Source: Candidatus Hermodarchaeota archaeon (GTDB taxonomy: Archaea; Asgardarchaeota; Hermodarchaeia; Hermodarchaeales; Hermodarchaeaceae). From it: DNA of 64,000 bases. The translations under genes and the position numbers were made by a program. Positions 35,854 through 53,409 of the stretch are shown piece by piece. A model generated the notes under the pieces. It was not told the origin of the DNA. It was given only the letters and a program-made list of their open reading frames with translations, and did no database searches. The DNA is taken from positions 1 through 64,000 of the forward strand of contig JAEOTO010000033.1 of assembly GCA_016839805.1 (NCBI GenBank), in the 5' to 3' direction. Positions within the stretch are counted from its first letter, which is position 1. The number at the start of each line of letters is the position of its first letter.

Positions 35854-36339
35854 TATTATTCCTCTCAGAAAGGTACAATATTCAATTAACGCCGCTTCAA
35901 TCCGTTCTCAAACTTAAAGGTACTGATGAGATGAATTATCCGAATGAATAAGAAAGATAATGTATATTGGTGTTGTATATTCACTACGAATTTTATTTTG
36001 ACTTAGAAAAGATATTTAGAAAAAAAATGATTGGAGAAGGAGATGGTCTCCCCTCCAAGTCTATCTCAATATCCTCACATACACCTTTAAGACACGAAAA
36101 TAAGGACTTTAACAGTTTTAAAACAGATTTCAAAGATTAAATGACAATATTTCGAGAATAAAACTGTGAAGATTACCCAAATGACGGAAAAAAGGCAAAA
36201 TAGGCTAACTAAGGCTGTTTTTATCTACAGAAATCTAGAAAATATTAGATTAAAATAGCTCTTCTTGGCATAAAAGTCGCTATAGGCTCAATTGGATTTC
36301 CAGAAGTCGACAGGTGCAATTTACTCATGAGGTTTGACC
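35854..36339. other. AT-rich intergenic region with a small hairpin
   Basis: This 486-base stretch is AT-rich and holds no convincing frame. A hairpin with arms GGAGA and TCTCC (36039-36051) sits in a purine-rich patch, and an ATAAAAG box (36269-36275) is placed to drive the following gene. GAGGT before the ATG at 36340 decides that start. Nothing else stands out. Confidence 0.4.
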
Positions 36340-37731
36340 ATGGAATCTGATGAATCGTTAGTAGCTATCGAACAACGGATTTTATCACGGTTAACGGCTC
36401 AAGATCAGAACCAATTGTCTAATTTACTTCGAAACATCATTCTATTCATCAGAGCAGTAAAGGGTGAACCTCTAATCGCGGAGGAGAAAAGCTATCCAGC
36501 TCATCCGTTGTTTGACCATTCAAAGCATTTTGGAGGTCGGGAAGCCGCAGAAACACTCCAGTATCGGTTAAGTCTTATTGACCGCTATGAGGTTACAAGT
36601 GCGCAATACATTGAAAAAATTTTGACCCTTGACTACCCAGCAGCCTATACAAAGAAATTGACAAAGCGTACTGCATTGATTCTTCGAGAGCTTCATGAAG
36701 ACCCATCAATTCCGAAATATAAATTAGCAAAAAAGGTGGGGACCACTTCTCGTGTAATTACTACGGAATTAAAGAAATTACAGCATGAGTTTGCTTTTCA
36801 GATCATTACATCCACAGACCCGCAGAAATTCCGATTAGTGAGTCAAGGTATTTTTTTCCGTTCTAAATCCACCCAGCATTCTGAGCAATTAGAAGATTAT
36901 TGTCGTAATCAACAGGGCTTTCACCGATTGTTTCAGTTAGATCGAGATATGATTAGAGGTGGCATAGCATTTCGATACCCAGATCAGCCTGAATGCCACA
37001 GAATGTTTGAAGAAAAGGTTCGCTGGCTGAGAGACGAATTTCTTGACGAATATTATCTTATTCGAACCAACGGTTTTTACTATTCTTTATCATTTAGTAT
37101 GTATGACCCAGAAACTAACTCATTTTCTTTTGACCCAGAAATCATTTCTGAAGCACTCACTTCGTACATTAAACAACAGCGAGTCACATTACCCGAGATG
37201 AAAGGAATCGACTATTCAAAACCGATTAGATTTGATCGCGCTGATTTTTTACTCGCTCACTCTTTGTATTCCACTGGTATCTTAGCACAGTCTGATTTCA
37301 AACAAAACCTCTTAAGACAACATGGCATTGATTTTTCAAAAAAAACCATTTGGAAACGTGAACAGCGGTTACGCAAAAAGAACGCTGCATATCCCATTAT
37401 TGAGATGCAAATTCCAGGATTTGATGAACACGTCTCTTTTATTGTTACTTGTTCACCTTTGGTTTGCACAACGATTCGCGATTTTGCCTCCTTCCTCCCA
37501 TATGTGATTTTTTTCAAAACTGATTCTGGTTGTATCTTTAACATTCAACGTCCAGCTCACAATCCAACATTATCCAGTCAACTTCTACATTCTATTCATA
37601 ATGAACCTGGTGTTTTAGATGTCAAATTACTCCGATATCAATGGCGCATCCTTTCAACCCGACATATTGACATCGTGGATTACTGGGATGAAGAAGAGCA
37701 GCGATGGAATATTGAAGAAGGCGCGATTTGA
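36340..37731 (+). CDS. large double helix-turn-helix regulator-like protein, paralog 1
   Basis: The 463-residue protein belongs to a family with four members in this window (also at 37757, 42863 and 49281). The shared layout is an N-terminal helical region (LLRNIILFIRAVKGEPL) and an HTH at about 105-150 (SIPKYKLAKKVGTTSRVITT). An alpha/beta segment holding FRSKS follows, then a second HTH near 290-360 (FDRADFLLAHSLYS, FSKKTIWKREQRLRKK). Another alpha/beta segment leads to a C-terminal WDEEEQRWNIEEG. A DNA-binding, ligand-sensing role is inferred from the Lrp-like pattern. GAGGT lies six bases before the ATG at 36340. Paralog 2 follows after 25 bases. Confidence 0.6.
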   Translation: MESDESLVAIEQRILSRLTAQDQNQLSNLLRNIILFIRAVKGEPLIAEEKSYPAHPLFDHSKHFGGREAAETLQYRLSLIDRYEVTSAQYIEKILTLDYPAAYTKKLTKRTALILRELHEDPSIPKYKLAKKVGTTSRVITTELKKLQHEFAFQIITSTDPQKFRLVSQGIFFRSKSTQHSEQLEDYCRNQQGFHRLFQLDRDMIRGGIAFRYPDQPECHRMFEEKVRWLRDEFLDEYYLIRTNGFYYSLSFSMYDPETNSFSFDPEIISEALTSYIKQQRVTLPEMKGIDYSKPIRFDRADFLLAHSLYSTGILAQSDFKQNLLRQHGIDFSKKTIWKREQRLRKKNAAYPIIEMQIPGFDEHVSFIVTCSPLVCTTIRDFASFLPYVIFFKTDSGCIFNIQRPAHNPTLSSQLLHSIHNEPGVLDVKLLRYQWRILSTRHIDIVDYWDEEEQRWNIEEGAI

Positions 37732-37756: not shown

Positions 37757-39199
37757 ATGTGCCCCAACCGTCAACCGGATCTAAAGGACCTGAAACCAAG
37801 GCAAGACGAATTCACAATTTTGAAGCAACTAGTAGATACTATTCTGAGAAGAGCACAACCCAAAGAAGACAAAAATGATCTCAAATTATTTCTCACAAAT
37901 GTCCTTCTTTTTATTCAACGAGTGGAGGGATTAACGCTTTCAGAAAAAGAAAAGCAATATCCACCACATTCCCAGTTTTCTCATGCTACTTTTACTAGGG
38001 GCCATCAAACTGCGCAAGGATTGAAGAATCGATTAATGATTATCGACAGATATCGAATCAAGAATGCTCAACGTATAATCAGCATCGTTGCTTCTACAGC
38101 ATTAGCGACACCAAAAGCAAGACTAACTCAACGACAAATCAACATTATCCTTGAACTTTACCAAGAGCCCTTATTACGGCAATATGAATTAGCCCGGAAA
38201 CTATCAACAACTCCACAAATAATCAAACGCGAATTGGATGTTCTACGTCAACATTTTTCTTTAGCAGTGATTCATGATATTGACTATCATAAATTCAAAC
38301 TTGGATTTTTTGAAATTCAGTTTCGAACTAGATCCATTGATGCCTCCAAACGTCTAGAACAGTTCTATCGTAGAACCCCGCCCCTCTTTTTACACCAAAT
38401 TAGATTTGATCAAGACTATCGAATTGGATTTATTACATATATGATACCGGACCAGCCACGTGGAATTCGCCTTCTTGAAGATCGTGTTCAATGGTTGAAG
38501 GATGAGTTTCTTGAAGAATATACCCATTTCCGGTTAACTGGCGAAGCTGTCTCGATCTCCTTTGATAGTTATGACTCGTCTAACGGTGTATGGATGTTAG
38601 GAGCAAGAACCCTTGCTGAAACGATGCTGCAACATGTTCAAAATCGAGCTCAACCATTTAGACAACCACGGGGGTTTTTTTATTCCGAACCAATGCCGTT
38701 CGATCAAGTCGACTATATTCTGGCTCAGACTCCCTATATTTTTGGTAGAAAGAAACGAATTGAAGTGCGGGAAAAAGTCCTTGAACGTCATGGATATTCT
38801 CTATCGAAGGCGGCTATATGGAATCGCGAACAGAAATTATGGAAAGCGGGTGTCTATCATCCCACCATTTGGTTTAATATTCCTGAGTTAGAAGAGCTGG
38901 TCCAATTCAGTATCCAGGGTAGTCCTGAAGCTTGTGAACGAATCCTTCGAATTACATCCATTCTTCCTTATACTTACAGTGTAAGAACGGAGATTGGTGT
39001 GGTCTTTATTTTTCAACGACCAAGTCGCTGTTCTTCAATAACTGGATTATTAACGCGTTTGATTAGTCATGAAGAAGGAGTTTCCAAGGTAACCCTGTTC
39101 CGATTCGAACCCTCCTTTAGTCCACAAATGCTGACTCATACTGCCGATAGATGGGATAGTAGTCGACAACGCTGGATTCTCAGAAAAGACGATATCTAA
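37757..39199 (+). CDS. large double helix-turn-helix regulator-like protein, paralog 2
   Basis: The 480-residue protein aligns along its whole length with its upstream neighbour: helical N-terminus (LFLTNVLLFIQRVEGLTL), first HTH (LLRQYELARKLSTTPQIIKR), FRTRSIDASKRLEQF, a middle part with DEFLEEYTHFRL, a second HTH (YILAQTPYIFG, LSKAAIWNREQKLWK), and the ending RWDSSRQRWILRKDD. AGGTGA is placed before the ATG. A 25-base gap from paralog 1 suggests one transcript and a recent tandem duplication. Their targets are unknown. Confidence 0.6.
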   Translation: MCPNRQPDLKDLKPRQDEFTILKQLVDTILRRAQPKEDKNDLKLFLTNVLLFIQRVEGLTLSEKEKQYPPHSQFSHATFTRGHQTAQGLKNRLMIIDRYRIKNAQRIISIVASTALATPKARLTQRQINIILELYQEPLLRQYELARKLSTTPQIIKRELDVLRQHFSLAVIHDIDYHKFKLGFFEIQFRTRSIDASKRLEQFYRRTPPLFLHQIRFDQDYRIGFITYMIPDQPRGIRLLEDRVQWLKDEFLEEYTHFRLTGEAVSISFDSYDSSNGVWMLGARTLAETMLQHVQNRAQPFRQPRGFFYSEPMPFDQVDYILAQTPYIFGRKKRIEVREKVLERHGYSLSKAAIWNREQKLWKAGVYHPTIWFNIPELEELVQFSIQGSPEACERILRITSILPYTYSVRTEIGVVFIFQRPSRCSSITGLLTRLISHEEGVSKVTLFRFEPSFSPQMLTHTADRWDSSRQRWILRKDDI

Positions 39200-40895: not shown

Positions 40896-41068
40896 TGTTG
40901 AGGTCCTTCGGCTCTCCGTTATTCCAACTTAAGAGTGTGCCGCCTTAGAAATCAATAACGAGAGGAAAGTTATAAAGACGAGAACAACTGCAGCAGTCAT
41001 AGCACCCGTGAAATTAAATCCCAATATCTCTTCACGGCTCTGCATAAAACCACGAGTGCGTGGATTCA

Positions 41069-41677
41069 ATGAAACACAAATTCATAAAGTACCACATCCA
41101 AAAGGATCAGCTCGTCCGTGTACCCAAAGACTACCTCAACGAATTTGGAACTGGCGACGTCTACCTTTTGGATACAGGACCCAAAATCTACCTATGGGTC
41201 GGAAAAAAATCTACACCGGACGAAAAATTCATTGGCGCAATTACCTCAGTTTGGAAAGATCAAGATCGAAAAGGTGCCGCCAAACTCATAACAGTGAACG
41301 AAGGCGAAGAACCTAAAGAGTTCCTTAACTTGTTAAATGGAAAAATCAGAGTTACGGATCAGGATACCGAAGGAATTCTAAAACGCGTTGCCCTTAAGCA
41401 ACACGAATTCAAACTCTTTCGCATCCACATTGAAGGTGACCTCAACCTCTATTACGAAGTTAAACGCTCCAAAGATTCCCTCGATACCGGTGACGTTTTC
41501 CTTTTAGACACCTATAATAAAATGTACATTTGGCGAGGCCAGAAATCCAGCGCCTTTGAACGCTGGGAAGCCATGACTATTGCTGAGGGCTATGATGACG
41601 AACGAGCTGGACATCAGGAAATAATTATCGTTGAAGAAGACGAAGAGCCGGAAGACTTCCTCCAAAGCCTAAAGTAA
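41069..41677 (+). CDS. two-domain gelsolin-like actin regulator
   Basis: The 202 residues form two gelsolin repeats. The first has GDVYLLDTGPKIYLWVGKKS near residues 27-46, followed by a helix and LITVNEGEEPKEFLNLL. The second has GDVFLLDTYNKMYIWRGQKSS and a long helix (ERWEAMTIAEGYDDERAG), then IIIVEEDEEPEDFLQSL. The D-x-FLLD strand and the W-x-G-x-xS turn are gelsolin signatures, and two-domain forms are characteristic of Asgard archaea, where they bind and remodel actin. The start may be ATG 41069 or GTG 41060. A TTATAA box is near 40970. No actin gene is in the window. Confidence 0.9.
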   Translation: MKHKFIKYHIQKDQLVRVPKDYLNEFGTGDVYLLDTGPKIYLWVGKKSTPDEKFIGAITSVWKDQDRKGAAKLITVNEGEEPKEFLNLLNGKIRVTDQDTEGILKRVALKQHEFKLFRIHIEGDLNLYYEVKRSKDSLDTGDVFLLDTYNKMYIWRGQKSSAFERWEAMTIAEGYDDERAGHQEIIIVEEDEEPEDFLQSLK

Positions 41678-42862: not shown

Positions 42863-44356
42863 TTGCTGTTTCGTCAAAAGGAAACTTTTTATGGGAGTTT
42901 CTTTCTTTCTGACGATGGTGTGGCGCGCGTGCAATCTGTGGTCGAAGTGGCAGATTTACTCTCCACCTTGAAGCACAACATCCATGAAGTAACCCTCCCA
43001 AGTGAAGAACTTTTCGAAGTTGACCTTCTGCTTGATAATCTTCGGCTATACGCTAAACGGGTTAAGGGTATTCCGTTTGACGAGGATGACTACAAAATTA
43101 AGCCACACCCATATTTTGACGGAATGGTTCTTCCGCCCCGTGAGAGAATGTACAATTCTTTGCTACGACGGCTTAAAGTCATTCTTCGGTTTAACATTAC
43201 CTCATATGAAAAAGTGACGAGGGATTTATTACGTGGTCTAGTATCCGATGAAGTTGATCGGATTACAGGAAGAGAAATTCGCTTACTCACTTTGTTATAT
43301 CAGCGACCCAATACTCCTCAAGCTCAAATGGCTAAAGAGTTGAATATCAGCCTCCCAACTATGCGAAAGGATATCCGGGCTCTTGAGGAAAAAATTGGTT
43401 TGCGGTTTGCCAACCTGATTGACTGGGGCCGGTTCAAATTACGCCATTATGGAATATTCTTCATGACTGCGGATGTTAAAATTTCTCGTCGTCTTCAGAA
43501 TATCTTCAATAAAGAAATGTCAACATATTTGACCAGAGCAGTTTTTGATACAACTTTTCGACGAGGATTTGTTGGTTTTAGGCTTCCTGATCAAGGAAAG
43601 CCGTTGCAACTCTTTCAAGAACAACTCGAATTTCTCAAAGAATATCTGTTTGCGGACTGTCAGGTTCATGAAATTAAGCAATATTTCCAATCAACATGTT
43701 TTGATCACTTTGACTACGATACTAGTACATGGTTAATTGAAAGTGATGTTTCTACCTTAGGATTGTTGAATTTTGTGCGTGAGAACTGGGCGATTCTTCC
43801 TAAACCAAGAGGTTTGTCTAATACAATAGCACGTGCATTCGATCAACTGGACTATTATTTGGCTTCATTTCTCGTTGGTGATGGAAATGCACCAATGAAA
43901 AAGATTTTAGACAGATTGAGTAGCATTGGGGTTGAAGCTCCCCGCACAACAGTTTCTACACGGAAAACTCGCCTTTTGAAAGAACGCACGATGGAGCCAT
44001 ATTTTTGGTTCACTACCCCACAACTACCGTTCTTTATTTCATTCGCCGTTAAATGTGAACCTTATATTGCGGAGCAGATAGCGGTGGCGGTAGCTCAAAT
44101 GCCATTGGCTTTCGCCACAGTCTCTAATATTGGATGCGTAGTAAATGTGAGTGTGCCTGCGCGAAGCCTTGGAACCATATTGAATCTTCTTTCACTTACG
44201 ATTGAAGATGAGGGTGTGGAAGAGGTTTGGCAGATGCAGCAATTTAAGAACGTTGGATCTCCTGATCCAGCTCAAATTGCGCCTAAATGGAATGGTTCGT
44301 ATTGGAATTGGTCTGAAGAAGAATTCGAGATTCCTTCTCTTGGTTTAAAGTATTAG
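42863..44356 (+). CDS. large double helix-turn-helix regulator-like protein, paralog 3
   Basis: The frame is 497 residues from TTG 42863. Internal GTG codons at 42920, 42929 and 42938 are more likely starts, since the family N-terminus (LLLDNLRLYAKRVKGIPF) comes later. It shares the family layout: first HTH (PQAQMAKELNISLPTMRK), a middle alpha/beta part with LRHYGIFFMTADVKIS, a second HTH region (FDQLDYYLASFLVGDG, then TTVSTRKTRLLKE), and an ending KWNGSYWNWSEEEFEI, where the paired Trp residues match those of its paralogs. It is more divergent than paralogs 1, 2 and 4. A nucleotidyltransferase-like pair follows on the same strand. Confidence 0.55.
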   Translation: MLFRQKETFYGSFFLSDDGVARVQSVVEVADLLSTLKHNIHEVTLPSEELFEVDLLLDNLRLYAKRVKGIPFDEDDYKIKPHPYFDGMVLPPRERMYNSLLRRLKVILRFNITSYEKVTRDLLRGLVSDEVDRITGREIRLLTLLYQRPNTPQAQMAKELNISLPTMRKDIRALEEKIGLRFANLIDWGRFKLRHYGIFFMTADVKISRRLQNIFNKEMSTYLTRAVFDTTFRRGFVGFRLPDQGKPLQLFQEQLEFLKEYLFADCQVHEIKQYFQSTCFDHFDYDTSTWLIESDVSTLGLLNFVRENWAILPKPRGLSNTIARAFDQLDYYLASFLVGDGNAPMKKILDRLSSIGVEAPRTTVSTRKTRLLKERTMEPYFWFTTPQLPFFISFAVKCEPYIAEQIAVAVAQMPLAFATVSNIGCVVNVSVPARSLGTILNLLSLTIEDEGVEEVWQMQQFKNVGSPDPAQIAPKWNGSYWNWSEEEFEIPSLGLKY

Positions 44357-44417: not shown

Positions 44418-45470
44418 ATGGTGGTGGTGGATGTTATCCAAATTAAAGAATCGATTCGTGAAGGAGATTTCATTGAAACCCAAGAAGGACTCATATTCGA
44501 TGTAAAGGGATTAGTGCACCCACCTAACCGGGTTATTGCTTTTCTTCGTTATTATCCATCGCCAGAGGGTAAGAGAAAACGTGACGGAATCACCTATGCT
44601 AAAGTCTATCATTTAGCTGAACGATTTGACATCCTACGAAACCGGTATCCTCAATATCTGTATCAAGATCCGGTGTTTGGTCGGGAGGTTCAAGGGGTTC
44701 CCAATGAGAACGTAAATCGAGTTTATCGTCCCACTCAGGTGTTAGAGCACTTAAATAATTTAGAGCATCGTGATACCCTGCAACAAGATGTAGTAACCTT
44801 TGCGAACATAATCTGTGAATCTGCTCGGGTTAAGCTATCCGCCTTAGGAATCTCTGGGAGTATCCAAGTGAATTTACATGGACCTAGTTCAGATATCGAC
44901 CTCATTGTGTATGGAAGACGAGCAAGTCGGGCAGTTCAACTAGCCTTACGTCGATCACACCTTGCCCCTGAACAGGGAATTACTGGATACCATTTGGATA
45001 ATTATCGACAAGTGTACAATCTGAGATGGAGTGGAACTGGGATTCCGATTGAGACTATGTTGTTAGTGGATGAATTGAAGTCCATGCACGGAATATTTGG
45101 TGGTTACCACTATTTTATACGAGCAGTCTTGGATCGTGCGGAGGCAAAGGAGAAGTATGGAGACCGTACATATCACCAACTTGGTCAGGCACGGGTACAG
45201 TGTCTGATAACAAATGATCGTGACAGCCTCTTTACCCCCTGCCGGTATGAGATAGATGAAGTGGAATTTATTGAGGGAGAGCAAGTTCAGAATATTCGTG
45301 AGATTGTGAGTTTTCGTGGACGCTTTGCAGAACAGGTAAAACGGGATGAAAAGGTAATCGTGCAAGGGATGTTGGAAAGGGTCGAAGTAGGTAAGAAGTC
45401 ATGGGTACGATTCATACTGGGTGATAGACCAACGGATATCTTAATACCAAGTAGTTTGCTTGGAGTATAG
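44418..45470 (+). CDS. nucleotidyltransferase-like protein, tandem copy 1
   Basis: The 350-residue protein has an N-terminal domain (IREGDFIETQEGLIFDVKG, RVIAFLRYYPSPEG). A central region follows with ISGSIQVNLHGPSSDIDLIVYG near residues 155-176, which is the GS-x(n)-SDIDL pattern of nucleotidyltransferases with metal-binding Asp residues. The C-terminal part, with ACR-like YEIDEVEF and IVQGMLERVE, looks beta-rich. It resembles predicted archaeal nucleotidyltransferases whose substrates are unknown. A near copy lies directly downstream after 18 bases. Confidence 0.6.
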   Translation: MVVVDVIQIKESIREGDFIETQEGLIFDVKGLVHPPNRVIAFLRYYPSPEGKRKRDGITYAKVYHLAERFDILRNRYPQYLYQDPVFGREVQGVPNENVNRVYRPTQVLEHLNNLEHRDTLQQDVVTFANIICESARVKLSALGISGSIQVNLHGPSSDIDLIVYGRRASRAVQLALRRSHLAPEQGITGYHLDNYRQVYNLRWSGTGIPIETMLLVDELKSMHGIFGGYHYFIRAVLDRAEAKEKYGDRTYHQLGQARVQCLITNDRDSLFTPCRYEIDEVEFIEGEQVQNIREIVSFRGRFAEQVKRDEKVIVQGMLERVEVGKKSWVRFILGDRPTDILIPSSLLGV

Positions 45471-45488: not shown

Positions 45489-46535
45489 GTGTCGCGTCAC
45501 CCAAAAGATAAGGATTTTGTGGAAACCACAGAAGGTTTGCTATTCACAGTAGTTGGATATCTGCATCCTCCAGATGCATATACGGCTTATTTGAAGTACC
45601 GTCCAGATGCTGAAGGGAAATGGGAAAGGCAAGGCATCCATTATCGTAGAATGATGCAAGTTTATAGTGCTGCCGAAGTTCAGTCGAGTATTAATTGGCT
45701 CCAGGAAAACCATCCTGAATATGTCTCACTTGATAGGGTTCGGGGCTTTGAATTAACGTTAGTACCCTGGAAGAATATTATTGCTTACTATTTGCCTGAA
45801 GTTCGACTTGTAGAGATAATAGGAGACCCGCAGGATCCATTAGAATCAAAGACCAGCGCCCTCGTCTCATTACTTTCTGAGGCTAGTGGAGTGCCCACGA
45901 ACCGGTTTGGCATTACAGGTTCATTACTATTAGGGCTTCATAATCCAATGTTCTCTGATATCGACTTACTGGTTTATGGCCGGGAAAATGCTGAACAAGT
46001 CCGTGATTCTATGGATCAAATGTTTGGTGAGAATAAGGTCAAGCCATATTCACCAGACGAGATTAGAGGATGGCAGTATCGCCAAGTGCAAACATTGGGT
46101 ATTCCAGACGAATTTGAAGAGCAGATAGCCTGGTCTTACTGGCAGCGAGGTCGTTTCAACCAAACAGCGTTTTCTATTAATCCTGTATGTACTGATGCGG
46201 AGATAATGGTTGAATATGGACAGGAAACCTATTCTTCGGTTGGTCCAGTTGAATTCACAGCGACAATCATGGAGGATCAAGGAAGCCTTTTCATTCCTGC
46301 TCGATACTTGGTAGGTGATATTACGATGGAATTAGGTGATATTGAACTCCCCGCGTTGACCGATGTCTTGTCATTTGAGGGCATATTTTCAGCGGTCTTT
46401 AATAAAGGCGACCAGGTTCGCATTCGAGGGACAGCTGAAGCGGTTCGAGATAAGGAAGGTAATATCATCCGGAACCAAGTAGTTGTGGGATCGTTATCTA
46501 CTCAAGGATGGATTATTCGTCTCCCATCATCCTGA
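45489..46535 (+). CDS. nucleotidyltransferase-like protein, tandem copy 2
   Basis: The 348-residue protein repeats the layout of its upstream neighbour: KDFVETTEGLLFTVVGYLHPPD at the start, ITGSLLLGLHNPMFSDIDLLVYG in the centre with the SDIDL metal site, and a beta-rich end (LVGDITMELGDIELPALTD, then VRIRGTAEAV). The start is GTG with GGGTGGGAT upstream. The two proteins are clearly similar over the full length, so a tandem duplication with possible paired function is likely. FwdD lies 98 bases downstream. Confidence 0.6.
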   Translation: MSRHPKDKDFVETTEGLLFTVVGYLHPPDAYTAYLKYRPDAEGKWERQGIHYRRMMQVYSAAEVQSSINWLQENHPEYVSLDRVRGFELTLVPWKNIIAYYLPEVRLVEIIGDPQDPLESKTSALVSLLSEASGVPTNRFGITGSLLLGLHNPMFSDIDLLVYGRENAEQVRDSMDQMFGENKVKPYSPDEIRGWQYRQVQTLGIPDEFEEQIAWSYWQRGRFNQTAFSINPVCTDAEIMVEYGQETYSSVGPVEFTATIMEDQGSLFIPARYLVGDITMELGDIELPALTDVLSFEGIFSAVFNKGDQVRIRGTAEAVRDKEGNIIRNQVVVGSLSTQGWIIRLPSS

Positions 46536-47065: not shown

Positions 47066-49249
47066 ATGATAACGATAATCATACTAGGTGTGGCGATATT
47101 CGCTGGGTTGCTCGCAATTCTAGTGGCGTTCATTTTCTTTCGATTAGTGATGCGAAGTGATGAAGGTAATGAACGTATGCGCGAAGTCAGTCAGCTGATT
47201 GAGGAGGGAGCACATTCCTTTCTCAGTATTCAATACCGTGTGCTCGCAGGCTTTGTCGTTGTGATGGCGATAATCATTACTCTTGCTGAGTTCTTTTTTA
47301 GTGGAACGGGGCTAGCCTCCGTTGCACTGGCAGTTGCCATTTCGTTTGTGATTGGTGCATTTGCTAGTATGACAGCTGGTTACGTAGGAATGGCGGTGGC
47401 AACCAAGGCCAATCGTCGGACTGCAGCTGCTGCCGCTGCTGGGGGATTAAATCCGGCTTTTCGTGTAGCCTTCCGTGCTGGTTCGGTAATGGGATTAATC
47501 ATTAGTGGTATCGCCTTGATTGGAATTGGAGGGTTGTTTCTTACTTGGAATGTCATTTTCCCCTATTTCGGTCCCGTTGCCTTATGGGAGATTATCGCTG
47601 GTTTTTCCTTTGGTGCAAGTAGCATCGCTCTCTTCGCTCGAGCGGGTGGTGGTATTTACACTAAAACTGCTGATGTAGCAGCTGATATTGTGGGAAAAAT
47701 CGAACAAAACATTCCTGAAGACGACCCGCGTAATCCTGCTGCAATAGCAGATGCAGTCGGAGACAATGTCGGCGACGTTGCTGGAACGGGAGCTGATATC
47801 TTTGATAGCAATATCGCTGCGATTCTTGCGGCAGCCATTCTTGGGGCTTCCATTGATCTCGTTTTGATCTTAAATGGTATCATTACGCCGATTCCTTACG
47901 GTTTAATTCCGCTGATCATAGCAGCTCTCGGGGCGTTAGCGTCAGTGGCAGGTGTTTTTGCTGTTCGGACACATGATTATTGTGAACCTGATTGTTCACT
48001 GAACCGTGGAACCTACTTTGCTACTATTCTCTTTGCTATTCTTGTTGTAATCGTTCTATTCTTACTCCAGATACCCATCGTGATTGCCATTTCCGGCGTA
48101 CTGGGGCTTTTAACCGGAGTACTCATTGGTTTTGTGTCAGCTGTGTTTACCAGCGATTATGGAGCGGGACGATTCCAACCGGTTCAGAGCATGGTCCGAT
48201 CATCGGAAACCAGTCCTGCCACTCTTGTGTTATCCGGTTATTCCTATGGCTTGCTCAGTACGATTCCATCTGTTGTTGGGATTGTTATTGCGCTGGTTGC
48301 ATCGTTTGTCCTTGGAGCTCTGATTCCTGTTCCGGGTAATATTGGGTTCTGGCAAGCGGGAGTATTTTCTGTGGCTATTGCGGCTGTTGGCTTGCTTGCA
48401 ACCAATGGTCTTGTAGTGAGTTCTGATGCTTATGGGCCAATTGTTGACAACGCCCGTGGGATTATCGAACAATCAGGAGCCCCGGAGGAAGCTATTGAAG
48501 CATGTGATAAGCTTGATGCTTTAGGGAATACGACGAAGGCGATAACGAAGGGTTTTGCCATTGGAGCGACAGGATTCACGGTAATTGCACTTTTTGCCGC
48601 GTATATTCAACTTGCCTCTAATATGACTGGAGGGATTATCTTCATTGATTTGCTAAATCCCGTCGTACTTGCGGGAGCCTTGATCGGTGGAATTTTGCCA
48701 GCGGGTTTCTCTGCTGCATTGATTCTTGGTGTCCAAAAAAATGCAGATAAACTCATCCGGGAGATTCGACGTCAATTCCGAGAAGACCCAGGTATACTCG
48801 AAGGCACAGCAACCCCTGATTACGATCGTGGCATCAAAATTGCGACAGCAGGTGCGCTTCGGGAACTTCTTCCAGCAACCATTGCCGCGATTGTCGTCAC
48901 TATTATTACGGGCGTCGTGTTGGGATTAGAAGCCTTGGCCGCGTATCTAGCAGGAGCGGTGATTACTGGATTGATCCTCGCGCTGTTCATGGATAATGCT
49001 GGGGGAGCTTGGGATAATACAAAGAAATTCATCGAATCGCCAGAATACAATCATGACCGAGAAGATTATCACATCGTTCATTCCGCTGCGATAACGGGTG
49101 ACACTATTGGTGATCCCTTCAAGGACACGGCAGGCCCATCAATCAATACGTTGTTGACTGTAATCTCACTTACAGCAACCCTCTTCCTACCACTAATTTT
49201 TGCTGGTCATCTTTGGATTCAAAGCCTTATCCTCATTCTAATCCCATGA
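47066..49249 (+). CDS. hppA: membrane-bound proton-translocating pyrophosphatase (K+-independent type)
   Basis: The 727-residue protein has about 16 hydrophobic helices and the pyrophosphatase signatures GGGIYTKTADVAADIVGKIE and DDPRNPAAIADAVGDNVGDV, whose Asp residues bind Mg-pyrophosphate, and later GAPEEAIEACDKLDALGNTT. The sequence GNTTKAITKG has Lys where K+-dependent forms have Ala, which marks the K+-independent subclass, usually a proton pump. It would turn pyrophosphate from biosynthesis into an ion gradient. It starts 33 bases after fwdD on the same strand. Confidence 0.95.
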   Translation: MITIIILGVAIFAGLLAILVAFIFFRLVMRSDEGNERMREVSQLIEEGAHSFLSIQYRVLAGFVVVMAIIITLAEFFFSGTGLASVALAVAISFVIGAFASMTAGYVGMAVATKANRRTAAAAAAGGLNPAFRVAFRAGSVMGLIISGIALIGIGGLFLTWNVIFPYFGPVALWEIIAGFSFGASSIALFARAGGGIYTKTADVAADIVGKIEQNIPEDDPRNPAAIADAVGDNVGDVAGTGADIFDSNIAAILAAAILGASIDLVLILNGIITPIPYGLIPLIIAALGALASVAGVFAVRTHDYCEPDCSLNRGTYFATILFAILVVIVLFLLQIPIVIAISGVLGLLTGVLIGFVSAVFTSDYGAGRFQPVQSMVRSSETSPATLVLSGYSYGLLSTIPSVVGIVIALVASFVLGALIPVPGNIGFWQAGVFSVAIAAVGLLATNGLVVSSDAYGPIVDNARGIIEQSGAPEEAIEACDKLDALGNTTKAITKGFAIGATGFTVIALFAAYIQLASNMTGGIIFIDLLNPVVLAGALIGGILPAGFSAALILGVQKNADKLIREIRRQFREDPGILEGTATPDYDRGIKIATAGALRELLPATIAAIVVTIITGVVLGLEALAAYLAGAVITGLILALFMDNAGGAWDNTKKFIESPEYNHDREDYHIVHSAAITGDTIGDPFKDTAGPSINTLLTVISLTATLFLPLIFAGHLWIQSLILILIP

Positions 49250-49280: not shown

Positions 49281-50696
49281 TTAGATATCGCCCTCTTTGA
49301 TGAGCCATCGTTGACGGCTTTCATCCCATCGAGTATAGGTGTCAACTGCCGAGGGTGTGCCGATGTTATCTCCCCGGCGAACAGCTACTACGTCCGTCAC
49401 ACCAGAGTAATTGCTCAAAGCCTGTACAAGCTGACCGGTGATTGCTCCACAGCGACTGGGTTGATGGAAGGAGATGAAGACTCCGGAATCAAGAATGGAA
49501 ATAAAGGAATATGGCAAAAGGGAGGGTAAAAGAGCAACTTGATCACGGATTTCGTTGTTGCATTGAACAAGTAGTGTAACAAAGGATTCGAAAAACGGCG
49601 CTTCGTAATAGACCATAGGCGCGTGGATTTCTTCGTTGCGAAATCGGAGAAGTTTTGCCCAGATAGTTTTTTTGGACAGTTCGAATCCGCGTTTATCTAG
49701 TTCCTTCTTGATGAACTCGATGTTTAATGGTCGTACATGGTTGCGTGCTAGTTGTCCAAGCAGAAAATCTAGTTGGCTAAAATGCATAGGTTCAGAATAT
49801 TTCAATCCATGGGGTTTGGGGATAGAATAACTATGAGATTGGATAAATTGCAGCATGGCTTCTGAGACGAGTGGAGAATCGCATATCCATGAATTAGATT
49901 TAGTATCATAGGCATCAAATGACATAGTATAGGCGGCGTCGAGAGTCCTCGCGATTGTCAAATCTTGAAAAAACGCATTCTGAAGCCAGGTTAATCTTTG
50001 ATTAAACAACTGGTGTCCTTTGGGTTGATCTGGAATTGTGAAAGTCATGAACCCAATACGATAGTCTTCATCAAAGGTGAAAGCTCTTAGAAACAGAGGT
50101 CGTTCGCGCTGGATAAATTGCACTAATTCCTTTGAGTGGTCAAGTGATTTTGTGCGAAAGATTATGAGCATATGCGCGAGTTTGAATTTATGATAATCAA
50201 GAAAATTTGCGACGGTAAAACCAAAGTAACGGCGAAGATCCTCTAACTCTTTTCGAATGGTGCGAGGAGTTGAATTAACTTTTCTCGCTAATTGGCTACT
50301 AGGAATAACAGGGTCATCATAGAGGTGAAGTAGAAGTCGAACTTTTCGTGGAGACAACCTGAGTTCTAGTGGATAGGGAGGTAAGTAGGAGAAGGCTGTC
50401 ATGATGTCGATGATTCGGTGAACATCAGTTATTTCGTACCGTTCGATTAGATCAAGTCGTTGTTCAAAGAAATCAGCTAACTCAGGGCTAGAATCTAGGT
50501 GCGCAGCAAAGGAAATGCGAGGATGTGGAGGAGGAAACTTTTCAGAATCAGGAATCGGTTCGCCTCGAGCCTTTTTGATGAATAAGAGAGCATTTGCTAA
50601 AAAGAGTTCAAGACTTTTCCTATCTCCTTTAGGCTGAGCCTTCCGAATAATGCGATTCGTTCGTTCTTCCAGTGACGTCTCTGAAACAAGCTTCAT
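49281..50696 (-). CDS. large double helix-turn-helix regulator-like protein, paralog 4
   Basis: The 471 residues match paralogs 1 and 2 throughout: KSLELFLANALLFIKKARG, a first HTH (VIPSSQLARKVNSTPRTIRK), FRTKSLDHSKELVQF, FDEDYRIGFMTFTIPDQPKG, the second HTH (LDFLLGQLARN, LSKKTIWAKLLRFR), and RWDESRQRWLIKEGDI at the end. It faces the pyrophosphatase gene tail to tail. A perfect dyad (50707-50722) is placed just before its ATG, where it could be bound by the protein itself. Its ribosome site is weak. Target genes are unknown. Confidence 0.6.
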   Translation of the reverse strand: MKLVSETSLEERTNRIIRKAQPKGDRKSLELFLANALLFIKKARGEPIPDSEKFPPPHPRISFAAHLDSSPELADFFEQRLDLIERYEITDVHRIIDIMTAFSYLPPYPLELRLSPRKVRLLLHLYDDPVIPSSQLARKVNSTPRTIRKELEDLRRYFGFTVANFLDYHKFKLAHMLIIFRTKSLDHSKELVQFIQRERPLFLRAFTFDEDYRIGFMTFTIPDQPKGHQLFNQRLTWLQNAFFQDLTIARTLDAAYTMSFDAYDTKSNSWICDSPLVSEAMLQFIQSHSYSIPKPHGLKYSEPMHFSQLDFLLGQLARNHVRPLNIEFIKKELDKRGFELSKKTIWAKLLRFRNEEIHAPMVYYEAPFFESFVTLLVQCNNEIRDQVALLPSLLPYSFISILDSGVFISFHQPSRCGAITGQLVQALSNYSGVTDVVAVRRGDNIGTPSAVDTYTRWDESRQRWLIKEGDI

Positions 50697-50722: not shown

Positions 50723-51180
50723 TTAAAAAGGTCATTAAACTGGCAAGAGAAACAAGCTGAAATTACTATGCGAAAGCCTAAACCTCTACAGAGAGTGGCG
50801 TAGATTACTAGAAAACGGAGATTAATGCGGATTAAATTAATAAAAAACCGCTGTTTAGTCATATTTTCTCAAAAAATAGTTATTAAACCACTCAATCGCG
50901 AATTCAATACCTATTGGGAGTCTATTACCCGATTTTTATACTCTTCCAGGATTAATTCGTATTAGTCCTAATGTTTGGAACTACTGTTGGACAACGCGTA
51001 CAAAACAGAAGTCAGGATCTATGGCGGAATAGGTTGGGTTACTACCAGCCAATCGGAAGGGAATTTCAAAGCCATTAGTGAATTTACCTATTCTAAATTA
51101 ACAGTCTAAGATTTTTTAGAAAGAGGGAAAAAGTACCCGTGATAAATTTTGGACACAAGTAACTTATGAAGTGAATAACT
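50723..51180. other. AT-rich intergenic region between divergent regulator genes
   Basis: This 458-base stretch separates paralog 4 from the mini-TFB genes. It has no convincing frame. A TTTTTATAC box (about 50934-50942) and a TTTTTTAG run near 51112 are visible, but neither can be tied to a transcript. It probably carries promoters for both sides. Confidence 0.35.
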
Positions 51181-51465
51181 ATGTCATTATCAAACCAATC
51201 TCAATATAACATTTCACCCTATGTCAATCAACTCCAACTGTCCTCTAATACACAAAAACGCGCTGAAGCCATTCTCTTTGACGTGGACCGAGCAGGTCTA
51301 ACATCTAGGAAAACTCCTGAAAGCCTCATTGCAGCGGCACTCTATATTGCATGTATCTTAGAAGATGAACGGCGGACTCAGAAGAAGATTGGTCAGGTAA
51401 CAGGGGTTTCACCACAGACGATTCAAACACGCTACAGGCAACTCGTCCATGAACTTGAAATTTGA
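51181..51465 (+). CDS. mini-TFB: single TFIIB-type cyclin repeat protein, copy 1
   Basis: The 94-residue protein matches the second half of a TFIIB cyclin repeat: QKRAEAILFDVDRAGL, then RKTPESLIAAALYIACILE and the helix-turn-helix end QKKIGQVTGVSPQTIQTRYR. Full archaeal TFB has a zinc ribbon and two cyclin repeats; here only one partial repeat exists, with no zinc motif. It could bind BRE-like DNA or TBP as a competitor or partner of TFB, but this is inference. A second, similar gene lies 107 bases downstream. Confidence 0.75.
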   Translation: MSLSNQSQYNISPYVNQLQLSSNTQKRAEAILFDVDRAGLTSRKTPESLIAAALYIACILEDERRTQKKIGQVTGVSPQTIQTRYRQLVHELEI

Positions 51466-51532
51466 TCGGGCTAGCCTCTTATTTAATGTGTTCTGAGAAG
51501 TAAGTGGTCATGTGACCTAGAAATCCAAGCCC

Positions 51533-51539
51533 TTATAAG
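51533..51539 (+). promoter_or_regulatory. TATA-like box before mini-TFB copy 2
   Basis: TTATAAG is placed so that transcription would begin near 51560, about ten bases before the probable start of mini-TFB copy 2. This position supports a protein start near 51573 rather than the TTG at 51672. Confidence 0.4.
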
Positions 51540-51572
51540 CAGCGTGAAGCGAACTTTTTCTGAGGTTTATCA

Positions 51573-51869
51573 ATTATACCTCAAATTTCTCAGACTCATC
51601 TCGATATTTCTGATTATAGTAATCGACTTGATTTTTCTCCCTCAACACAGTCACAAGCAGAAGATATCCTCTTGAAGATCCGGGAATCGCAAATTAATTT
51701 AAAAAAATCCCCTAACACCCTTATTGCAGTAGCCCTCTATATTGCGGGTATCTTAGAAAACGAGCCCCGAACAATGGCTCAAATCAGTCAGGTCACTGGT
51801 GTGTCCCAAGGTACGATTCAAAAACGGAAGACCGAGATTGTTCGTGAGCTTGGAATTCGAAGAGAATAA
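51573..51869 (+). CDS. mini-TFB copy 2, start codon unusual
   Basis: From TTG 51672 the frame gives 65 residues with the TFIIB-like LKKSPNTLIAVALYIAGILE and RTMAQISQVTGVSQGTIQKR. The same frame is open back to a stop at 51561 and encodes ISDYSNRLDFSPSTQSQAED, which matches copy 1 (ISPYVNQLQLSSNTQKRAEA). The true N-terminus is therefore upstream. There is no ATG, GTG or TTG there. ATT at 51573, a few bases after GAGGT and about 37 bases after the TATA box, is the best candidate. A frameshift or decayed start cannot be excluded. The function should parallel copy 1. Confidence 0.65.
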   Translation: MIPQISQTHLDISDYSNRLDFSPSTQSQAEDILLKIRESQINLKKSPNTLIAVALYIAGILENEPRTMAQISQVTGVSQGTIQKRKTEIVRELGIRRE

Positions 51870-52011
51870 CTAGGTCAGGATTATATTCCGAGTTGGAAAA
51901 CTTGGAACCCCCTCTTTTTCTTATTGACACTTGGTCAGGGCGAACCGCTTAAATGACAGAACCACAATGTACATTTACACCGGAGCTAAGGTGCTAATTG
52001 AGGTTCAAGGT

Positions 52012-53409
52012 ATGACTACGAAAGACACTGATGCAATTCTAGCAACCCCTCGGACTCGCATCACTAAGCATGTAATATGCCCATTTTGTGGTTGTCTCTG
52101 TGACGACATTGAAGTTGCGGTAACCATGACCGGACCCCTCCCACGAGTTCCTGAAGGCACCATTGTTGAAGCCTTGAATGCGTGTCGAATCGGACATACT
52201 AAGTTCTTGAAGGTTCGAGATGAGTATCGTATTTACAAACCAGAGCTACGGTCCGGTTCGGATAAATCCGAGGTAAAACATGTGTCCATTGAAGAGGCTG
52301 TACAGGCAGCAGCAAAGATACTTGCGAATGCTAAACGCCCTGTGATCTATGGCTTGGCGAGTACCTCTAATGAAGCAAATGTCAAAGCCTTAGAACTGGC
52401 TGAAGTATCAGGCGCTATTGTAGATAATACCTCATCTGTGTGTCATGGTCCAGGGATTGAAGCGGTCCAACGTGTAGGGATTGGCACCGCTACCTTAGGT
52501 AAAATCAAGAACTATTCAGATTTGATTATTTATTGGGGTTGCAATCCAATTGCCGCCCATCCACGTCATACACGACGGTATTCGCAATTCATTGAAGGTC
52601 TCTTCCGACAGGTCGAAGATCGTAAGATCTATCACATCGATGTTCGCCCTACACGGTTCTCTGATCAAGTCACTAATTTCATTCAAGTTGAACCTAACAA
52701 AGATTATGAGTTATTACAAGCGGTACGATCTTTGCTTCGTGGACATGAATTACAGGCTTCAGAAGTTGCAGGAGTTCCCATGCGACAGGTTCGTGAGTTA
52801 ACAGCGGATTTAAAAAACGCCCAATTTACCACGATATTCTTTGGATTAGGACTAACACAGAGCCACGGAAAAGACCATAACATCTCAGTTGCCATCGACC
52901 TGACAGCCGATTTGAATCATTATACTAAAGCAGTAATTATGCCCTTGCGTGGACATTTCAACGTCACTGGATCTAACCATGTATCAACATGGACCTATGG
53001 GTATCCTTTTTCAGTTAGTCTTGAACATGGTGCTCCATATTACATGCCCGGTGAAACCAGTGCAGTGGATGTATTAGTCCGGGGAGAAGCAGATGCATTC
53101 TTTGCAATCGCGGCAGATCCTGCAGCCTCATTTCCCGCATCCGCGGTCAAGCAAATGCTCAACATTCCTGTGATTGTCCTTGATCCGAAGCGGTGTGTTA
53201 CAACAGAAATCGCTGATGTCGTCTTGCCTTCGGCGTACGTAGGGATTGAGGCTGATGGTGTTCAAACAGCATACCGAATGGATGGCATTCCCTTGCAACT
53301 GAGTAAAATTGTTGATGCTCCTGCAGGCATCAAAAGTGACGATCAAATCCTTGATATGCTAGTCCGCGAGGTCTGCAAGCTAAAGGGCATAAAACGCTAT
53401 CCCTATTAA
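52012..53409 (+). CDS. fwdB: formylmethanofuran dehydrogenase subunit B
   Basis: The 465-residue protein is the catalytic W/Mo subunit. It has the [4Fe-4S] motif CPFCGCLCDD (C23, C26, C28, C30) and a metal-ligand Cys in SSVCHGPG (C144). The position is a selenocysteine in some methanogens. Later motifs are LIIYWGCNPIAAHPRH and RGHFNVTGSNHVSTW. An open frame begins at TTG 51931, but the family N-terminus and a GAGGT site seven bases before ATG 52012 favour the latter. With FwdD it would reduce CO2 or oxidise formylmethanofuran. Confidence 0.93.
   Translation: MTTKDTDAILATPRTRITKHVICPFCGCLCDDIEVAVTMTGPLPRVPEGTIVEALNACRIGHTKFLKVRDEYRIYKPELRSGSDKSEVKHVSIEEAVQAAAKILANAKRPVIYGLASTSNEANVKALELAEVSGAIVDNTSSVCHGPGIEAVQRVGIGTATLGKIKNYSDLIIYWGCNPIAAHPRHTRRYSQFIEGLFRQVEDRKIYHIDVRPTRFSDQVTNFIQVEPNKDYELLQAVRSLLRGHELQASEVAGVPMRQVRELTADLKNAQFTTIFFGLGLTQSHGKDHNISVAIDLTADLNHYTKAVIMPLRGHFNVTGSNHVSTWTYGYPFSVSLEHGAPYYMPGETSAVDVLVRGEADAFFAIAADPAASFPASAVKQMLNIPVIVLDPKRCVTTEIADVVLPSAYVGIEADGVQTAYRMDGIPLQLSKIVDAPAGIKSDDQILDMLVREVCKLKGIKRYPY

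Follow-up and report, generated by a model that had tools for sequence, protein, structure and literature searches.

Gene models and genomic neighbourhood

The DNA analysed here (the window) is a 64-kb stretch on contig C23 of a 2.3-Mb Hermodarchaeota (Asgard) MAG, G000. It carries two tandem neighbouring genes on the plus strand, mini-TFB 1 (mini1) and mini-TFB 2 (mini2), with one TFIIB-type cyclin repeat in each open reading frame (Table 1). The coordinates and length first proposed for mini1 were confirmed. The second gene had been given a TTG start at 51672; nevertheless, its open frame begins upstream of this codon, at 51564, and the protein read from ATA 51576 aligns with the ATG start of its ortholog in H03M_Hermod_104 (G001), IPQISQTHLDISDY vs MPNVSQTHVDISDF, which places the start at 51576. 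Either an unusual ATA/ATT start is in use in mini2, or the start codon has been damaged in G000.

Table 1. Coordinates of the mini-TFB genes, their recognition helices, the adjoining genes and the single-repeat genes of Asgard family f6
Feature	Position	Strand	Remarks
471-aa regulator-like gene	49281..50696	-	Divergent neighbour; paralogous family; arrangement also in G001
mini-TFB 1 (mini1)	51181..51465	+	94 aa; one complete C-terminal-type TFB cyclin repeat
mini1 fifth (recognition) helix	51412..51456	+	Residues 78-92; AlphaFold2 model and column counts
mini1 Gln82 codon	51424-51426	+	Replaces the Arg of 75/75 TFB repeats
mini-TFB 2 (mini2)	51576..51869	+	97 aa; one complete cyclin repeat
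mini2 recognition helix	51807..51851	+	Residues 78-92; AlphaFold2 model and alignment columns
fwdB, formylmethanofuran dehydrogenase subunit B	52012..53409	+	TIGR03129 523.7 bits, cut-off 327.8
f6 single-repeat protein	G018:C44:58815-59099 (L172)		Intact
f6 single-repeat protein	G020:C146:4798-5085 (L173)		Intact
f6 single-repeat protein	G021:C134:5541-5828 (L174)		Intact
f6 single-repeat copy	G032:C15:448096-448380 (L171)		Internal TAA

In G000 and G001, the genes are ordered fwdD, hppA, the divergent 471-aa regulator-like gene, mini1, mini2 and fwdB. The original prediction had read the tandem copies beside regulators and FwdB as a local control device, a proposal that lacks support, since the synteny is not conserved in related genomes. 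FT1_005 (G002) and Ca. Hermodarchaeum yapensis (G004) have a Rce1/CPBP-like protease gene between hppA and fwdB; the sister genus has fwdD directly beside fwdB; and the FT1_005 mini-TFB is on a different contig from the fwdB region. Because relatives carry different genes at this place, the neighbourhood is recent and lends little weight to a fwd-specific role. A search for operators near the minis by inverted repeats returned only weak ones, none of them convincing, and scanning for sigma-70 promoters is not informative in archaea.

The fwdB start at ATG 52012, not TTG 51931, aligns with those of the orthologs. The fwdB leader (51870-52011) is likely the promoter of this gene, as predicted from its sequence; it is 93% identical to that of G001 over 51870-51973, and G002 and G004 share its GGGCGAACCGCTTAAAT motif. 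On the other side of the minis, the 50860-51136 segment is frameshifted in the window and corresponds to an intact 98-aa ORF in G001 (L096:4405-4701), with no Pfam match. In the genus of the window, and not in the sister genus, fwdD is separated from fwdB by an inserted hppA gene (47066-49249), which encodes a membrane pyrophosphatase. Regulator-like paralogs of 465-497 aa with weak HTH matches lie at 36334-37731, 37757-39199 and 42863-44356 on the plus strand and at 49281-50696 on the minus strand; a fifth copy is located at G000:C21:185316-186704, and related genomes have up to six. Directly 5′ of fwdD, a tandem pair of related genes (44418-45470 and 45489-46535; about 30% mutual identity) is conserved in both genera. 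The gene at 41060-41677, near the fwd region, encodes a protein with a gelsolin domain, one of the eukaryotic signature proteins of Asgard archaea; its syntenic place is kept in relatives.

Domain identity, fold and coding evidence

The Pfam TFIIB repeat model PF00382 (cut-off 23.6 bits) matches mini1 with 59.8 bits over model positions 10-91 of 92 and mini2 with 46.3 bits over positions 7-90 of 92. The prediction of two single-cyclin-repeat proteins was thus correct, and its view that each protein retains just the end of a repeat has to be revised, since this coverage makes both repeats complete. The NCBIfam TFB model (cut-off 384 bits) aligns at its C-terminal end only, at positions 222-308 of 312 for mini1 (77.5 bits) and 224-309 of 312 for mini2 (54.1 bits), both scores being below the cut-off. 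In a profile comparison with Pyrococcus TFB (1ais), repeat 2 obtained 78.8 bits and repeat 1 obtained 29.3 bits. Based on the near-full PF00382 coverage, the C-terminal NCBIfam match and the preference for repeat 2, each mini is, as read from its sequence, exactly the second (BRE-side) TFB repeat, in complete form.

AlphaFold2 models of both proteins have five helices (pLDDT 87 for mini1 and 83.8 for mini2). The best PDB matches of the mini1 model were the second repeats of 1ais_B and 1d3u_B (TMq 0.87, rmsd 0.6-0.7), and that of the mini2 model was 1d3u_B (TMq 0.85), with an alignment that spans one repeat. The predicted fold is that of a TFB repeat rather than a different one. The HTH helix is present, the invariant core residues P46, Y55, R65 and T66 are retained, and the last 30 residues are slightly positive, with a charge of +1 to +3.

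A Pfam Zn_Ribbon_TF match is present in the C27 TFB of G000 and absent from both minis, whose ORFs are too short to include an N-terminal zinc ribbon. The B-reader and B-linker are also missing, the proteins starting about 10 residues ahead of the repeat. The earlier description of the minis as TFB-derived, HTH-containing proteins with no zinc ribbon therefore stands. Each ORF holds a single repeat in place of the two-repeat TFB architecture. A heterodimer of mini1 and mini2, or a homodimer, that imitated the two-repeat core of TFB would fit the adjacency of the two tandem copies in G000 and G001; however, both copies are of the repeat-2 type rather than one of each type, and G002 yielded a single copy, which makes this arrangement extremely improbable.

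By codon usage, the minis score in frame as ordinary genes of the window do, and their other frames score negative. Between G000 and G001, dN/dS (omega) is 0.33 for mini1 and 0.23 for mini2, and non-synonymous changes fall short of expectation in both (Fisher p 0.005 and 6e-6, respectively). For mini1, the comparison of G000 with G002 gave a pS of 0.86 and a pN of 0.24 (p 2e-19), synonymous sites being saturated; its orthologs are 83% (G001) and 64-66% (G002) identical. With omega values of 0.04 and 0.05, respectively, fwdB and the C27 TFB evolve several times more slowly than the minis. Taken together, the coding signal and dN/dS values show from comparative sequence data that both minis are functional, fast-evolving genes under purifying selection. 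The low pN against a saturated pS ruled out a pseudogene in the case of mini1, and the omega of 0.23 makes it unlikely for mini2. The Hermod relatives were likewise found intact and under purifying selection, not decayed.

Another reading is that the minis, and especially mini2 with its ATA start, are relics of a duplication that do little or nothing and are on their way to being lost. Their fast evolution, the ATA in place of ATG in G000, their absence from G003-G007 and the stop codon in the f6 copy of G032 (see below) would agree with such a fate. Nevertheless, dN/dS is well below 1 in both minis, mini1 is conserved as far as G002 despite saturated synonymous sites, and codon usage is normal; we consider a relic quite improbable.

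Distribution and origin of the single-repeat proteins

Among 228 genomes of the phylum, Hermod minis were found only in G000 and G001, with two copies each, and in G002, with a single copy recovered, whose gene sits at a contig end. The five Hermod minis form a single clade with a support of 100/100. In the tree, mini2 joins the mini1 genes of G000 and G001; the AU test does not reject a clade uniting the three mini1 genes (p 0.45). As a tandem copy of the mini1 kind, mini2 has diverged further, possibly toward a different target. The C27-type TFB is a candidate parent: placing the minis with it gives a slightly better fit, by 3.3 lnL units.

Other single-repeat candidates were discarded. The look-alikes G053, G038, G005:C254, G004:C10 and G000:C26 are genes cut at contig edges, and the 198-aa frame G121:C1:518170, beside a masked N stretch, carries part of repeat 1 and is not stand-alone. 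No viral relatives were confirmed in viral contigs and none were present in phage records; the viral, phage and plasmid searches returned only two matches annotated as TFIIB, on archaeal plasmids, and the viral fold library gave no match below E 0.001. A viral origin of the minis was rejected on these grounds.

Of the TFIIB-repeat matches listed for 16 near-complete Asgard genomes, nearly all lie in frames of 297-372 aa; one exception is in G032. This copy belongs to a second single-repeat set, in Asgard family f6 (Table 1). The f6 proteins of G018, G020 and G021 are 95-97 aa long and, like the Hermod minis, consist of a single repeat of the repeat-2 type and are under purifying selection. Unlike them, they keep TIRNRY in the recognition helix together with the SG loop, and their genes lie near tfb and glyS. 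The f6 gene is located 3′ of tfb and ahead of glyS in G018, G020 and G032; in G021 it adjoins glyS, and tfb is found on the same contig at a distance of about 1.7 kb. A single-repeat gene is absent from other f6 members, which do have tfb and glyS. The position next to tfb in f6 suggests that the single-repeat proteins were born from tfb by a partial tandem duplication that copied its 3′ end.

In a free tree, the f6 proteins are not grouped with the Hermod minis, and a joint clade is not rejected (AU p 0.47). The separate locations and the restricted distribution of the two sets favour two putative origins.

Recognition-helix replacements, proposed function and known systems

We aligned the five Hermod minis with 75 TFB repeat-2 domains, mostly from Asgard archaea, together with other archaea, P. 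woesei and human. Positions are numbered by human TFIIB, in which we take V283 and R286 to be BRE-reading residues. The R286 equivalent is Arg in 75/75 TFB repeats vs Gln in 5/5 Hermod minis, and the Gly of the 'SGK' loop (G247 equivalent) is Gly in 75/75 TFB repeats vs Arg or Lys in 5/5 Hermod minis. The V283 equivalent is Val in 66 of the 75 TFB repeats and Q, H, N or G in the Hermod minis; the f6 proteins have Ser at this position. The residue following the R286 equivalent is Asn in 73/75 TFB repeats (Gln in human) vs T, S or K in the Hermod minis. Accordingly, the conserved BRE-reading helix V-T-[VI]-R-N-R of this alignment is not found in the Hermod minis. The recognition-helix Gln has been maintained, as it is common to the G000 and G002 copies, between which synonymous sites are saturated.

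In TFB, the second cyclin fold binds the BRE and the third HTH helix lies in the major groove (PMC7289017, PMC8131849). Competition with TFB, as the original prediction proposed, would have a mini occupy the BRE and block TFB. The part retained is indeed the HTH that binds the BRE in TFB, and the f6 minis keep Arg-Asn-Arg-Tyr in the recognition helix. Nevertheless, the invariant Arg and the neighbouring Val and Asn are replaced in all five Hermod copies, which weakens this proposal, and the minis lack repeat 1, which aids the grip on TBP/DNA in TFB (PMC8131849). With the Gly replaced as well, these changes make a simple BRE decoy less likely than a small DNA-binding factor of altered specificity, and we regard the decoy as very improbable.

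The best explanation of the minis is that they are small DNA-binding regulators with non-BRE specificity, for which we see about an even chance. Each gene would give rise to a free-standing C-terminal (BRE-side) cyclin/HTH repeat devoid of the zinc ribbon, B-reader/linker and first repeat. Without the ribbon, B-reader and repeat 1, the minis cannot act as TFB, and a mini-TFB by itself would not recruit RNA polymerase in the canonical way, a consequence of the missing zinc ribbon. The detached repeat may still bind DNA through its HTH, with a specificity differing from that of the BRE, and may regulate transcription as a small repressor or co-regulator. The retained HTH repeat is slightly basic and its reading residues are changed, which points to such a regulator. 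The loss of the Arg may also mean that sequence-specific DNA binding was lost rather than newly directed.

The main rival to a non-BRE regulator is a modulator of the promoter complex, that is, a mini that docks in trans on TBP-TFB-DNA or on TFB/TBP and activates or inhibits initiation without reading DNA. Cyclin folds bind proteins as well, and in the Hermod minis the core residues named above are kept while the BRE-reading residues are lost. TFB3, a truncated TFB paralog that works with canonical TFB, offers a precedent (PMC7289017, PMC3189178). Its architecture is reversed, however, with the zinc ribbon kept and the HTH missing (PMC2246294), and we hold this modulator to be rather unlikely.

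In a broader and more tentative reading, which we rate somewhat short of even, Asgard archaea would have carved the BRE-binding repeat out of TFB at least once, and probably twice, as a free regulator, with the Hermod residues rewritten toward a new specificity.

TFB paralogs are common, and TFB copies are numerous in the Asgard lineage, the one nearest to eukaryotes. Compared with archaeal TFB and eukaryotic TFIIB (1ais, 1d3u), the minis correspond to the whole second repeat including the HTH, with 43% identity to P. woesei TFB over 84 columns of a structural alignment. They differ in lacking the zinc ribbon, the B-reader/linker and the first repeat, and in the replacement of the recognition-helix Arg and the 'SGK' Gly. 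In the literature searched, which left most subscription journals uncovered, we met with no description of a free-standing C-terminal TFB repeat from archaea. Arabidopsis AtBRF5 has one cyclin fold repeat and no N-terminal zinc domain (PMC7865254); it resembles the minis by this description, but it is a plant Brf-type factor and retains the linker.

The Sulfolobus and Thermoproteus TFB3 proteins resemble the minis as truncated TFB paralogs in which one cyclin fold is missing or abbreviated. TFB3 of Sulfolobus has retained the zinc ribbon but not the HTH (PMC2246294), that of Thermoproteus lacks one cyclin fold (PMC3189178), and TFB3 is thought to work alongside canonical TFB (PMC2246294, PMC3189178, PMC7289017). 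The minis, with only the HTH-bearing repeat and no zinc ribbon, are its mirror image, and would add a second type of truncated TFB paralog in the lineage nearest to eukaryotes. According to one proposal, sigma factors and simple HTH regulators descend from the HTHs of the TFB cyclin folds (PMC8131849). A free-standing TFB repeat, under selection and with altered recognition residues, would make this route from a TFB HTH to a regulator directly testable.
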